DNA of 27,219 nt, from the IMG/VR virus record IMGVR_UViG_3300031578_000275, positions 1 to 27,219 of that record; one strand, 5' to 3'. Under the pieces are notes generated by a model. The model had not been told where the DNA came from. It made no database searches and saw only the letters and a program-made list of their open reading frames with translations. How positions within the stretch are numbered: position 1 is the stretch's first letter; each line of letters opens with the position of its first letter. The DNA comes from a virus. Below, piece after piece: positions 4,743 to 22,201 of this stretch. The translations under genes and the position numbers were made by a program.

Positions 4743-6007
4743 GTGACTGGCAGCAAAGAATTAGACCAGAAATAAAATTCACATCCCCTGAAGGAAATAT
4801 TTTTATAGCCTTGTGGAGAAGTAATACAACTCCACAGGAAAAAAAAGTTGCTATCTTCAATTATCCAAAAATAAATGGTTCTGTTATCCAGGATTTAGGT
4901 GTTAATAGTACTCGGTATCCTATGACAATATATTTCGAAGGCGCTAATAATGACCTTGAAGCTGAGTTATTCCAAGCAGCATTAAATGAAACCGGACCAT
5001 GGACAGTTATCCATCCCGTATTAGGTGAAAAAATATTACAACCCTTGTCATTTTCTCCGGATATTAATCCTACAGGAAGCGGAAACATAACTGTTATTAT
5101 AACAGAATGGATTGAACCTATAAGCGATATCGTAATAGGTTCTGTTCAGGAGTTGGCAGCTAAAATACAAGCACAACAAGATGCCCTTAATGCACAGGCA
5201 GCAGCTCAATTCTCAGAAATAACAAATCAGGAAGCAACAGCGGAAGTGCTTGCAATTACAAAAGAATCAGAAAATATATTAACCCAGTATGATGAATTCC
5301 TTGATGATCTTGCAAAAATTAATGCAGATGTTAATGCGCAAGTATCAGCCGTAAAACAAGGAATAAATGATACAATAATACAACCCATTATAAACACTCA
5401 GGCAGTAGTAGGGGGATTTCAGGAATTGCTTGAATTACCCTCACTTGTAAGTAACGACATTCAGGCCAGGCTATCGCCTTATATTGATTTTGCGGTTTCA
5501 CTTATCACAACACCACCACCAGTTCCTGCAAATGTAGAAAATAAAAATACAATAGCCACACAAGAAATGACACTCGCAGCAGTTACCGGAACACTAGGAA
5601 CAATTGCAATTACAGGAGATTTTCAAACCAGGTCTGAAGCTATACAAACCGCAGCGGATATTAATAATATTTTCACAGAAATTACAAATTATTTGGATGC
5701 CTCACAGGTTAATTTTTCAAATAATTCAATAGATAATCAATATTTTTCCCAAAGTCAAACTTATTCTGATGCCGCTTTACTTATTGCTTTTATCTCAGGA
5801 TATTTACTGAAAATATCCCTTGATTTGAAAATAGAAAAAAGATTTGTCCTTAAAAAAGATAGGGCACCAATTGAAATAACGATTAAAGAATATGGTGATT
5901 TGGGTGATAATGACAGCAATTTTGATTTATTTATAGCCTCTAATAATCTGAAAGGAAATGATATTATCCAACTTCCAGCAGGTAGGGAGGTTGTAGTCTA
6001 TGTCTGA
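4739..6007 (+). CDS. Mu gp43/gpN-like DNA circularisation-family tail protein
   Basis: 422 aa. The first ~125 residues fit the DNA_circ_N family (IRPEIKFTSPEGNIFIALWRSN, NYPKINGSVIQDLG, ITEWIEP). This family is named for Mu gpN but acts in tail and baseplate assembly. The middle (about 130-290) is Ala/Gln-rich and helical. The start overlaps the tape-measure stop (ATGA) and the end overlaps the hub gene by 8 bases. The name 'circularisation' is historical; a structural role at the tube-baseplate junction is the better inference. Confidence 0.8.
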   Translation: MSDWQQRIRPEIKFTSPEGNIFIALWRSNTTPQEKKVAIFNYPKINGSVIQDLGVNSTRYPMTIYFEGANNDLEAELFQAALNETGPWTVIHPVLGEKILQPLSFSPDINPTGSGNITVIITEWIEPISDIVIGSVQELAAKIQAQQDALNAQAAAQFSEITNQEATAEVLAITKESENILTQYDEFLDDLAKINADVNAQVSAVKQGINDTIIQPIINTQAVVGGFQELLELPSLVSNDIQARLSPYIDFAVSLITTPPPVPANVENKNTIATQEMTLAAVTGTLGTIAITGDFQTRSEAIQTAADINNIFTEITNYLDASQVNFSNNSIDNQYFSQSQTYSDAALLIAFISGYLLKISLDLKIEKRFVLKKDRAPIEITIKEYGDLGDNDSNFDLFIASNNLKGNDIIQLPAGREVVVYV

Positions 6008-11797: not shown

Positions 11798-12139
11798 ACC
11801 GGAGTTATCCGGCCTTTCTCTCCTTATATTTTCTTTAGTGCCATTATTATTATAAAAAATAGCCGTTAAAGAATTGAAGCAATAAGGACATATTAAAAAG
11901 TTTCCATCTCCTACTATAGAACCAGATTGATGCCATACTGTTAATTCATCCGAAACACCACGGCATATATCACAATTTTCTTCTGGTCCTATAACTGTGA
12001 TATTATTAATTTGTGCTATATTATTAGCTTCTATTTCTCCATCTGAACACATTACGCATTCATTAAATAATAATTCTAATCTGTTTGCTACCTGGAGAGG
12101 TATCATTTTTTCATTTCCCCAAACTGCATATTTAAGCAT
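11702..12139 (-). CDS. Small cysteine-rich (zinc-ribbon-like) protein, unknown
   Basis: 145 aa, last gene of the accessory operon. Three CxxC pairs (28/31, 56/59, 84/87) suggest zinc binding. The ATG overlaps the end of the HTH gene by 8 bases behind GAGGT, so translation is coupled. From about residue 105 the frame reads through the 11799-11812 hairpin and then antisense to the last 96 bases of the preceding tail gene. That tail is Phe-rich and looks like non-protein sequence. The folded protein is probably the first ~100 residues. No family recognised. Confidence 0.6.
   Translation of the reverse strand: MLKYAVWGNEKMIPLQVANRLELLFNECVMCSDGEIEANNIAQINNITVIGPEENCDICRGVSDELTVWHQSGSIVGDGNFLICPYCFNSLTAIFYNNNGTKENIRRERPDNSGLFIFFFNYFNLFFVPFLSFIKCFCRFNPLYF
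11799..11812. terminator. Weak hairpin between converging late and accessory transcripts
   Basis: CCGGA-GTTA-TCCGG forms a 5-bp stem with a 4-base loop immediately after the last tail gene. It is followed on the plus strand by CCTTTCTCTCC, only a poor T-run. It sits where the plus and minus operons converge. On the minus strand it is inside an open reading frame. Confidence 0.45.
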
Positions 12140-12323
12140 CTTTTACCTCAAATTTATCTTCAATTTTACCTATAATCATTTTCCTGTAAACGGCTATAGG
12201 TTTTCTCAATCCCTGTTCCCATGATTGATATGTTTTTATATTTATTTCCAGAAAATTAGCCATTTTTTCCTGTGATAATCCAAGTTTTTTTCTATATTGT
12301 TTTAATTGTTCATCAAAGTTCAA
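12132..12323 (-). CDS. XRE/Cro-type HTH regulator
   Basis: 63 aa, a single helix-turn-helix domain: LKQYRKKLGLSQEKMANFLEI then KTYQSWEQGLRKPIAVYRKM. The SQEKMANFLEINIKTYQSWE part is the HTH with the recognition helix. It is short, DNA-binding only, like Cro-type or antitoxin-type regulators. The start is TTG, overlapping the preceding stop (TTGA), with AGGAGGTGAAG upstream. It probably regulates the accessory operon; candidate operators are the dyads at 12558-12571 and 15920-15949. Confidence 0.8.
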   Translation of the reverse strand: MNFDEQLKQYRKKLGLSQEKMANFLEINIKTYQSWEQGLRKPIAVYRKMIIGKIEDKFEVKDA

Positions 12324-12538: not shown

Positions 12539-12569
12539 AATTTCCTCTCCTCTGCGTATGTCTGCCGAC
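12536..12569 (-). repeat. Leader element B, copy 1
   Basis: Reads GTCGGCAGACATACGCAG, then AGGAGAGG, then the ATG. It is shared with 13109-13139 and 14331-14363, always ending in the SD and start codon of a small gene. In this copy ATGTC-GGCA-GACAT is a perfect dyad at 12558-12571. Confidence 0.8.
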
Positions 12570-12598
12570 ATTATAAACCATATCGTCGCTGTAAACAA
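12570..12598 (-). promoter_or_regulatory. Promoter for the HTH-gene operon
   Basis: Minus strand: -35 TTGTTT (12598-12593), 17-base spacer, -10 TATAAT (12575-12570). The -10 is consensus and the -35 partial. The expected start point falls in the ATGTC-GGCA-GACAT dyad immediately downstream, a plausible operator. Confidence 0.6.
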
Positions 12599-13111: not shown

Positions 13112-13139
13112 TTTCCTCTCCCTGCGTATGTCCGCCGAC
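13109..13139 (-). repeat. Leader element B, copy 2
   Basis: Reads AGTCGGCGGACATACGCAG, then GGAGAGG and ATG. Shares this block with 12536-12569 and 14331-14363, and here joins directly to RNA-like element A. Confidence 0.8.
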
Positions 13140-13141
13140 TG

Positions 13142-13195
13142 TTTCCGGTTTCCTGGCACTCGCCCAACCGCCCCTTGAGGCGATCGAGTAAGTGG
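13142..13195 (-). ncRNA. Structured leader element A, copy 1 (covarying hairpin)
   Basis: 54 bases matching copy 2 (15002-15055) at 48 positions. In minus-strand RNA: outer stem CACTT/GAGTG, 3x3 internal loop, inner 8-bp stem CGATCGCC/GGCGGTTG with a 6-base loop, then CCAG-GAAA-CCGG. Most differences from copy 2 keep pairing, including one compensatory C-G for T-A change. The G-U pairs exist only in the minus-strand transcript. It lies 30-85 bases upstream of the 12605-13111 start. Function unknown: mRNA processing, stability, or regulation. Confidence 0.6.
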
Positions 13196-13202
13196 AGAAA
13201 AA

Positions 13203-13673
13203 CTAATTATTCTCTTTCGTTAACAAAAAGAAATCATAACCAATAGTTTCAATTTCTTCTATGGTAAAGATTTTTCCTTCCCGTGGTCTGCCTCTCAGCT
13301 TAAACACTATACAGATATCATTTTCTTCCTGTGAAAATGTAATCCTGTTAACCGGCACTTCTATACTAAGTAATTCGGTCAATATGGCAGCGGTGCTCTG
13401 GTGTCCTATAGCTGATAACATTTCTGTACCTTGTAATAATTCTTTAGCTTCATCAAGGGAGCTTTTTCTATAAGCGAAATATCCCTCACTTGTGATAATA
13501 CTTGTATTCAATAATACAACTCTTTTCATAGTTTTTTCCTTCTTTTCCTCAAACCACAGAGCGTTTATTTTGGCCGTTCCTGAATCGGCCTTAAATTCTA
13601 TGTAGCCTGGTACTTTATATCCTTCTGAATCGGTATGTATTTCAGGTACATACTCTATTTTATTTATCTTCAT
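13203..13673 (-). CDS. DUF1874 protein, AcrIII-1-like viral ring nuclease (anti-CRISPR candidate)
   Basis: 156 aa. Residues 49-156 match DUF1874: RVVLLNTSIITSEGYFAYRK, EMLSAIGHQSTAAILTELL, SIEVPVNRITF, then VFKLRGRPREGKIFTIEEI. The family's SIRV1 gp29 (AcrIII-1) cleaves the cyclic tetra-adenylate messenger of type III CRISPR using His47, Arg85 and Glu88. Here His91, Arg129 and Glu132 have the same spacings (38 and 3). Residues 1-48 are an extension not in the short viral forms; Met49, behind GAAGG, could be a second start giving the classic length. The ATG used has TTGGAGGG upstream; the longer frame only translates the leader. Confidence 0.85.
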   Translation of the reverse strand: MKINKIEYVPEIHTDSEGYKVPGYIEFKADSGTAKINALWFEEKKEKTMKRVVLLNTSIITSEGYFAYRKSSLDEAKELLQGTEMLSAIGHQSTAAILTELLSIEVPVNRITFSQEENDICIVFKLRGRPREGKIFTIEEIETIGYDFFLLTKENN

Positions 13674-13699
13674 ATTTACCCTCCAATAATTTATTTTCT
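13671..13699 (-). repeat. Leader element C, copy 1
   Basis: The 20-base core GAAAATAAATTATTGGAGGG (13679-13698) is identical to that at 14986-15005, and similar to 13856-13884. It holds the SD of the DUF1874 gene and also the stop codon of the 55-aa gene upstream. Confidence 0.8.
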
Positions 13700-13858
13700 T
13701 ATTTCCCACTCTTTGGCGTAGGAAATAGTAACCACTGATCCTCTCATTACTATCTTTTTTTCTCGCCGCATATCTACTGGAATAAGGTAAAAGGTAGCAA
13801 CAGAAGGCACACTATCTTTACGAATCCATGTTTTTCTTGGTTTATAATTGGTTTTCAT
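13691..13858 (-). CDS. Small basic hypothetical protein (55 aa)
   Basis: Starts MKTNYKPRKTWIRKDSVPSV and ends SVVTISYAKEWEIRK. Very basic in the first 15 residues; the rest alternates hydrophobic residues as in a small beta-fold. CTGGAGAG stands 6 bases before the ATG. Its stop lies within the leader of the DUF1874 gene 18 bases ahead, so the two are probably co-translated. No family recognised; small size and partner make it a candidate accessory or anti-defence factor. Confidence 0.6.
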   Translation of the reverse strand: MKTNYKPRKTWIRKDSVPSVATFYLIPVDMRREKKIVMRGSVVTISYAKEWEIRK

Positions 13859-14333: not shown

Positions 14334-14363
14334 AATTCCTCTCCTCTGCGTAAGTCCACCGAC
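14331..14363 (-). repeat. Leader element B, copy 3
   Basis: Reads GTCGGTGGACTTACGCAG, then AGGAGAGG, then ATG. The dyad here is AGTC-GGTG-GACT; copy 1 has T-A where this has A-T, a compensatory change. Directly upstream is the hairpin CGGGC-ATGA-GCCCG (14371-14384). Confidence 0.8.
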
Positions 14364-14370
14364 TATTTGT

Positions 14371-14384
14371 CGGGCTCATGCCCG
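14371..14384 (-). other. GC-rich leader hairpin
   Basis: CGGGC-ATGA-GCCCG, a perfect 5-bp stem, 38 bases before the start of the 13902-14333 gene. It overlaps an alternative stem CCGAC/GTCGG (14359-14363 with 14369-14373), so the two folds are mutually exclusive. Confidence 0.5.
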
Positions 14385-14394
14385 GTGTTGGTTA

Positions 14395-14671: not shown

Positions 14672-14980
14672 TTAAAATATTATTTCATACTCTCCAAACA
14701 TAGAAGTAGGATTATCGACATATACTAATTTTTTTGCACGTATTTTCTTGCAAAACAGGTCTCTGCTTTCTTCTGTATGAGCATTTCCGCCATTCATATC
14801 ATCAAGAATTGAATCACTTACAAAATACCCTGTTATATTTCCTTCCTCATCATATACTGCATAGTCTTCTTTGCTTGTATACTTTACCCTTAAGATTAGC
14901 CGTGAAAAAGTTAACCTTAAGAATAAACCAACCATACTTAATCCTATAAGACATATTCCACAAAATAATATAGTTTTCAT
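14672..14980 (-). CDS. Small membrane-anchored hypothetical protein
   Basis: 102 aa. Residues 2-28 (TILFCGICLIGLSMVGLFL then RLTFSRLIL) form one transmembrane segment or uncleaved signal. The rest is soluble and mixed (YAVYDEEGNITGYFVSDSIL), probably facing one side of the membrane. Element C supplies TTGGAGGG before the ATG; the longer frame only reads the leader. It could be a superinfection-exclusion or host-takeover membrane protein, but nothing specific is recognised. Confidence 0.6.
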   Translation of the reverse strand: MKTILFCGICLIGLSMVGLFLRLTFSRLILRVKYTSKEDYAVYDEEGNITGYFVSDSILDDMNGGNAHTEESRDLFCKKIRAKKLVYVDNPTSMFGEYEIIF

Positions 14981-15005
14981 AATTTCCCTCCAATAATTTA
15001 TTTTC
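14978..15005 (-). repeat. Leader element C, copy 2
   Basis: Contains the 20-base core identical to 13679-13698 and the SD of the membrane-protein gene. It is fused directly to element A copy 2, as element B is to copy 1. Confidence 0.85.
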
Positions 15006-15055
15006 CGGTTTCCCGGCACTTGCCCAACTGCCCCGTGAGGCAGTCGAGTAAGTGG
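15002..15055 (-). ncRNA. Structured leader element A, copy 2 (covarying hairpin)
   Basis: Minus-strand RNA: outer stem CACTT/AAGTG, inner stem CGACTGCC/GGCAGTTG, 6-base loop, then CCGG-GAAA-CCGG, a GNRA-type tetraloop hairpin. 48 of 54 bases match copy 1. An eight-G tract (plus strand 15054-15061) borders it. GC-rich inside an AT-rich region. Confidence 0.6.
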
Positions 15056-15893: not shown

Positions 15894-15925
15894 TAATTTC
15901 TGAATGTCACACACTCTCTAATACT

Positions 15926-15954
15926 AATATACCACATAGTAGGAGTATTGTCAA
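15926..15954 (-). promoter_or_regulatory. Strong sigma70-type promoter of the accessory operon
   Basis: Minus strand TTGACA (15954-15949), 17-base spacer, TATATT (15931-15926). This is consensus -35, near-consensus -10, ideal spacing. The inverted repeat AATACT (15920-15925) / AGTATT (15944-15949) flanks the -10 and may be a repressor site. Confidence 0.8.
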
Positions 15955-15962
15955 GCTTTTTA

Positions 15963-15991
15963 TTGAAATAAATTAAAAAAAATGATATATT
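15963..15991 (+). promoter_or_regulatory. Plus-strand promoter giving a leaderless VRR-NUC message
   Basis: TTGAAA (15963-15968), 17-base spacer, TATATT (15986-15991). The ATG at 15998 lies 7 bases after the -10, at the expected transcription start, and no SD exists before it. The -35 boxes of this and the divergent promoter are 8 bases apart. Confidence 0.7.
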
Positions 15992-15997
15992 TTTTGT

Positions 15998-21467: not shown

Positions 21468-21651
21468 GATTTTTCTCCTTGACTGTAAATGGTTTTCTCT
21501 TATCATATTCGGAACGCTTGCCTTTATTCCAGTTTTTAACTGGTCTATAATAACCTACTATCCGGGTATATACTGCACACTCAGTACCCATAGTTTTATT
21601 TAATTTTTCTTTAAGAGTATTTATTTTTTCATCAATCGATATTGATTGCAT
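21460..21651 (-). CDS. Stand-alone NrdD-like glycyl-radical segment
   Basis: 63 aa. Residues 25-55 (CAVYTRIVGYYRPVKNWNKG, then KRSEYDKRKPF) match the C-terminal loop of anaerobic class III ribonucleotide reductase. There R-(I/V)-x-G-Y carries the radical glycine and N-x-G-K follows; the candidate radical is Gly33. A short helix precedes it. The paired zinc cysteines that precede this loop in full NrdD are missing; only Cys25 is present. It may act like GrcA/YfiD, replacing a damaged radical domain of the host NrdD, or be a decayed remnant. AGGAG is 8 bases before the ATG, and it overlaps the DUF2284-like gene by 20 bases. Confidence 0.7.
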   Translation of the reverse strand: MQSISIDEKINTLKEKLNKTMGTECAVYTRIVGYYRPVKNWNKGKRSEYDKRKPFTVKEKNHE

Positions 21652-22201
21652 TCAATTCTCCTATAAAGGCGATTTTATAAATATATGTCTGTTTAGAATA
21701 ATTTCTTTTACTAGGAATTCCGATATTATGTGCAGTTGTAAAAACATGTAATCCCATAGCCTCCGGTATTAATTCATAACATAAATGCTTTTCTTCTCCT
21801 GTATTAGTGTAAAAGTTTCCTTTTTGGTCCACTCCCGAACTTCCTAATTGTAATATAATATCTTGACACATTTCTTCTAAAATCTTTTTTATTGATGGTT
21901 GCCAAAAAAGCAAACATCTCGCTTGTTTTTTTGTCCATTTTGGATGTAATTTTAACATTCTTTTTTCTTGTTTTTCTATATTGAATTTAATATAAACAAA
22001 ATAACAATGTGCTGATAAATTATATTTTTTTTCTAATCTAATTGAATTAGGTGGACACTGTTGGGATTTACCGACATTCGGGCAACCATTTTTATGTCCT
22101 GGATATGGCAATTTACATAAGTTAATAGAATTTATAACAAAAAATAATCTTTTTATTTCTTTTATTCCTTTTCCTTCTATACAATCAATTAATTCACTCA
22201 A
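21632..22201 (-). CDS. DUF2284-like cysteine-rich metal-binding protein
   Basis: 189 aa from TTG behind GGAAGGA. Its pattern CKLPYPGHKNGCPNVGKSQQ followed by CPP (Cys29, 40, 49) and the later C-x-x-x-x-PEAMGLHVFTTAHNIG (Cys141 onward) resemble DUF2284 predicted metal-binding proteins, which likely hold an Fe-S or metal site. Other cysteines: 7, 66, 96, 112. It overlaps the glycyl-radical gene, implying a shared redox role in an anaerobe. The family call is from recalled motifs. Confidence 0.55.
   Translation of the reverse strand: MSELIDCIEGKGIKEIKRLFFVINSINLCKLPYPGHKNGCPNVGKSQQCPPNSIRLEKKYNLSAHCYFVYIKFNIEKQEKRMLKLHPKWTKKQARCLLFWQPSIKKILEEMCQDIILQLGSSGVDQKGNFYTNTGEEKHLCYELIPEAMGLHVFTTAHNIGIPSKRNYSKQTYIYKIAFIGELNAINID

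Follow-up and report, generated by a model that had tools for sequence, protein, structure and literature searches.

A predicted ring nuclease of the DUF1874/AcrIII-1 family with a 48-residue N-terminal extension, encoded by a tailed phage

The virus record IMGVR_UViG_3300031578_000275 (27,219 bases; "the window" hereafter, meaning the whole stretch of DNA analysed) exhibits a minus-strand ORF running from an ATG at position 13673 to a stop codon at 13203. From its sequence and modelled structure, we predict with high confidence that this ORF encodes a phage AcrIII-1 (DUF1874) ring nuclease, which would cleave cyclic tetra-adenylate (cA4) and silence type III CRISPR signalling. Cleavage of cA4 as a counter-defence is by far the likeliest function, since all the sequence features of the characterised enzymes are present. 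The gene is a well-supported further member of the known DUF1874/AcrIII-1/Crn2 family. The kind of enzyme is already known, and only the 48-residue N-terminal extension stands out as unusual. The plus strand of the interval 13203-13673 exhibits no open frame, being interrupted by many stops; the first-pass annotation gave no strand for the gene. The gene and its catalytic part are located as follows.

13203..13673, minus strand: predicted viral ring nuclease gene (AcrIII-1/DUF1874), 156 aa, assigned from the ORF, the PF08960 match and the fold match
13206..13529, minus strand: DUF1874 catalytic domain (residues 49-156), assigned from the Pfam stretch (52-147) and from His91, Arg129 and Glu132

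A profile search against Pfam matched residues 52-147 to PF08960 (DUF1874/STIV_B116-like; E-value = 5.6e-26, 91.1 bits). The curated cut-off of this profile being 26 bits, a chance match is excluded, and the DUF1874 membership proposed in the first-pass annotation is borne out. The protein also matches the PADLOC profile of the ring nuclease Csx16 (E-value = 6.7e-19), itself a cA4 ring nuclease (PMC12409355). With 91 bits for PF08960 against 67 bits for Csx16, DUF1874 is the better assignment. Sequence matches in the PDB are AFV3-109, Csx1-Crn2, STIV B116 and SIRV1 gp29.

The AlphaFold2 model of the window protein, computed from an eleven-sequence alignment (mean pLDDT 87, pTM 0.69), exhibits the DUF1874 fold. 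Foldseek assigned a probability of 1.00 to 2j6b, 8y7g (the cA4-bound Csx1-Crn2), 6scf, 2x4i and 2j85, and every PDB fold match with an E-value below 0.001 is a DUF1874 protein (AFV3-109, Csx1-Crn2, SIRV1 gp29, STIV B116). The entries 6scf and 2x4i are SIRV1 gp29, the AcrIII-1 enzyme with which a common fold had been anticipated. The best match among solved structures is AFV3-109 (2j6b; sequence E-value = 9.3e-15, fold E-value = 1.7e-9), which differs from the window protein in being 109 aa long, in lacking the extension and in coming from an archaeal filamentous virus.

The catalytic residues anticipated from SIRV1 gp29 were all located in the 156-aa protein. In the gp29 record the corresponding residues are His47, Arg85 and Glu88, spaced 38 and 3 apart, and His91, Arg129 and Glu132 of the window protein align with them column for column, so that the equivalence drawn at first pass holds. 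These three residues are invariant in all nine sequences aligned, together with Asn56, Gly90, Thr94, Asn109 and Arg110, and they are invariant again in a second alignment (n = 11, mostly metagenomic viral loci). Their conservation covers archaeal viruses as well as elements of Fusobacterium, Vibrio, Thermoanaerobacterium and Hydrogenobaculum. Following the earlier annotation, we take Arg85 and Glu88 of gp29, the counterparts of Arg129 and Glu132, to have active-site roles, which their invariance in our alignments also supports. SIRV1 gp29 thus resembles the window protein in its fold, in the His/Arg/Glu set with its spacing and in its viral carrier. It differs in sequence (26% identity), in length (114 aa), in lacking the 48-residue extension and in belonging to an archaeal virus rather than a tailed phage.

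Characterised members of the family provide the biochemical frame. The rate of cA4 degradation by SIRV1 gp29 is 5.4 per minute, about 60 times that of the cellular Crn1 (0.089 per minute), and the H47A variant of gp29 is inactive while cA4 binding is kept (PMC7213978). The Crn2 domain of Csx1-Crn2 is also a fast cA4 ring nuclease, the activity of which is abolished by His495Ala (PMC7293037). Among the ring nucleases of phages, AcrIII-1 is the most frequent, being found in 36 of 28,114 phage genomes (PMC12409355). For the window protein we infer the following course of action. A dimer would bind cA4 produced by activated Cas10 and cleave it, giving linear di-adenylate products. His91 would likely act as the general acid in this reaction, and Arg129 and Glu132 would lie within the active site. 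The cA4-gated effectors (e.g. Csx1, Can2, Cap1) would then turn off, and the phage would survive.

The protein might instead mainly sequester cA4 or another cyclic nucleotide as a sponge, or cut a different signal, such as rings of other sizes or CBASS-type messengers. Phage sponge proteins for cyclic nucleotides are indeed known (PMC11722364, PMC12409355), specificity is not readable from sequence, and the identity to SIRV1 gp29 is just that 26%. We nevertheless consider such an activity very unlikely, given that the window protein retains His91, Arg129 and Glu132, as the characterised cA4 cleavers do, and that every characterised family member cited here cleaves cA4.

The carrier of the predicted ring nuclease is an uncultivated virus and, by its gene content, a tailed phage. 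The genome encodes a tail sheath, a tape measure protein, a helicase, a primase and a RecE-like exonuclease, together with a gpA-type terminase large subunit and a cytosine DNA methyltransferase, and the ring nuclease gene is flanked on both sides by phage structural and replication genes. The whole window is contained, with three mismatches and one gap, in a 47,036-base contig of another record (L030). A 189-aa protein encoded elsewhere in the window (21632-22201, minus strand) shows a sub-threshold match (E-value = 2.8e-4) to DUF2284, a predicted metal-binding family.

These surroundings bear on whether the gene could be a cellular Crn2 homologue, that is, a host immune regulator in a mis-binned fragment. 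Cellular type III loci can indeed contain DUF1874 genes (PMC12409355). On the Vibrio aerogenes plasmid pLMG19650 (L043), a YddF/DUF1874 gene adjoins an annotated cas1, and this gene probably represents a Crn2 of a CRISPR locus carried by the plasmid. The present gene, by contrast, is embedded in a phage genome, where it lies between the tail genes and those for replication. The same phage genes surround it in an independent assembly, the 27-kb and 47-kb contigs being near-identical, and, with no cas gene recognised in the set of genes that was searched, the contig shows no type III CRISPR-cas locus. A mis-binned cellular fragment is accordingly extremely improbable. Marinitoga Csx1-Crn2 (8y6z, 8y7f, 8y7g; E-value = 6.1e-8) resembles the window protein in carrying the catalytic domain at the C-terminus of a longer protein, but the partner at its N-terminus is an entire Csx1 effector belonging to the host's own immunity, not an orphan segment of 48 residues. 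The assignment to the ring nuclease family made at first pass is thus supported by sequence, profile, fold, catalytic residues and a tailed-phage setting.

The gene belongs to a series of small minus-strand genes, from 15.87 to 11.70 kb, mostly without known function. This accessory cluster is headed by a promoter-like sequence.

15926..15954, minus strand: strong sigma-70-like promoter, TTGACA-17-TATATT with a TG before the -10 element, matching 11 of 12 consensus positions

The whole cluster would presumably be expressed from this promoter (15954-15926). The promoter is carried by an 88-bp repeat, present at 15907-15994 of the window and at 5143-5230 of the 47-kb contig with about 97% identity. 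The two copies are inverted, each lying directly 5' of a small gene without known function, and the gene following the second copy adjoins the terminase gene. On the minus strand, intergenic leaders that recur (12542-12571, 13112-13200, 14336-14390 and 14969-15055) also precede several genes of the accessory cluster. These contain a TGCGTATGTCCGCCGAC motif, GGAGAGGAA and GC-rich hairpins. Two 54-nt leader copies are 89% identical, and by eye the pairing in their hairpin survives an altered base pair; a search of Rfam returned no match in the leaders. A gene for a 63-aa helix-turn-helix protein (12132-12323) follows the ring nuclease gene, three genes further downstream and also on the minus strand, and its placement is reminiscent of the anti-CRISPR-associated (Aca) regulators.

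The near-consensus sigma-70-like promoter and the GGAGG ribosome-binding sites suggest that the host is bacterial. For the sheath and the primase, even the closest named relatives are distant, with identities below 30% among the matches listed, and they are split over unrelated hosts; another contig carries a sheath 64% identical to that of the window. It had been proposed that such a gene implies a host that has, or had, a type III CRISPR system. This is reasonable as a probabilistic expectation but is not a strict rule, because the Bacillus subtilis control genome contains a DUF1874 gene, although neither the Csm1 nor the Cmr2 form of cas10 finds a match there. The sole cellular relative found (L027) comes from an Acaryochloris assembly that has a Cmr2 match above the cut-off.

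The N-terminal extension and the two candidate start codons are located as follows.

13530..13673, minus strand: N-terminal extension (residues 1-48), predicted three-stranded beta unit, from the codon score and AlphaFold2
13671..13707, minus strand: start ATG (Met1) and leader with the Shine-Dalgarno sequence GGAGG (TTATTGGAGGGTAAATATG), anti-Shine-Dalgarno duplex of -9.8 kcal/mol
13527..13542, minus strand: possible internal start Met49 (ATG at 13529-13527) with AAGGA upstream (GAAGGAAAAAACTATG), anti-Shine-Dalgarno duplex of -5.7 kcal/mol

The extension is very probably translated, as the strong Shine-Dalgarno sequence at Met1 and the coding-like codon usage indicate. The energy of the Met1 site is within the range of the other genes in the window. 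Its leader exhibits 87% identity over 39 nt with the leader of another gene of the same cluster (14980..14672), which locates the start codon by independent means. The GTG at 13709 was rejected as an alternative start, as it lacks a Shine-Dalgarno sequence. The 48 codons of the extension score 0.24 per codon, whereas the other two forward frames score -0.56 and -0.60.

Met49 is a possible start of its own. Its AAGGA is at a workable spacing from the ATG, and 7% of the 111 internal in-frame ATGs reach the strength of its anti-Shine-Dalgarno pairing. Met49 also coincides with the start of the short homologues, such as that of phiFN37 (MKKIALLNTSI against MKRVVLLNTSI). The arrangement is consistent with an in-frame fusion at the 5' end of an ancestral short gene, and long (Met1) and short (Met49) forms of the protein are possible. 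One could then suppose that the short protein from Met49 is the one that matters, the 48 upstream codons being fortuitously in frame and functionless, a reading to which the well-spaced AAGGA, the alignment of Met49 with the homologues' start and the lack of any homologue of the extension would lend themselves. We regard it as unlikely. The Shine-Dalgarno sequence of Met1 is far stronger (-9.8 against -5.7 kcal/mol) and stands in a leader common to another gene; the codon usage of the extension is near the real-gene median, at the 46th percentile (117 real segments), and scores higher than every one of 234 wrong-frame segments; and the extension is predicted to fold. A more elaborate arrangement would have two proteins made from one frame: a 156-aa product from Met1 and a canonical 108-aa ring nuclease from the kept ancestral Met49, with the extension as a new accessory module serving as a tether for the enzyme or changing its range of substrates, its oligomeric state or how well it resists host countermeasures. 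This too seems improbable. Translation of the extension as part of the protein remains the preferred reading.

By itself, from the single sequence without an alignment, the extension is modelled by AlphaFold2 as a three-stranded beta unit with a pLDDT of 83.5. Searches of viral contigs, phages, Pfam, PHROGs and the PDB returned no homologue of the extension outside the same virus. Nor did the fold comparison yield a significant relative, all matches having E-values above 0.4, with COMM domains and enolase fragments at the top. Two candidate relatives were discarded. A derivation from the tail-tube protein of the phage itself rested on a local score of 46, which was reached by 24 of 300 shuffled extensions against the phage's own proteome. 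An apparent homologue over residues 16-153 (L016) crosses a stop codon, and its true ORF is a short form of 109 aa. Translated with the protein, the extension would probably add a small beta-sheet contributing to stability, oligomerisation or placement, not to the chemistry. It could also obstruct the dimer or the cA4 site.

The nearest named phage relatives are the DUF1874 proteins of the Fusobacterium phages phiFN37, phiBB and phiKSUM, with 42-54% identity. As the first-pass annotation had it, 48 residues precede Met49; its further statement, that the short viral forms lack this extension, cannot be widened to an absence of extensions in all other phage forms. The proteins of phiBB (127 aa, an extension of about 20 aa) and phiKSUM (206 aa, about 100 aa) are N-terminally extended like that of the window, with extensions unlike the one described here, whereas phiFN37 has none. 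By eye, the first 20 residues of the phiKSUM (L004:2201-2821) and phiBB (L003:2477-2860) proteins are alike (EEL.L.EK), as if the phiBB extension were a shortened form of that of phiKSUM.

If its activity is as predicted, the window protein adds a tailed phage to the known carriers of cA4-cleaving anti-CRISPRs. N-terminal extensions of DUF1874 proteins have arisen more than once in phages, with differing sequences. Should these extensions be without a role, the gene would be an ordinary, well-supported anti-CRISPR annotation; should they have one, they would provide an example of phages tuning a very small enzyme.
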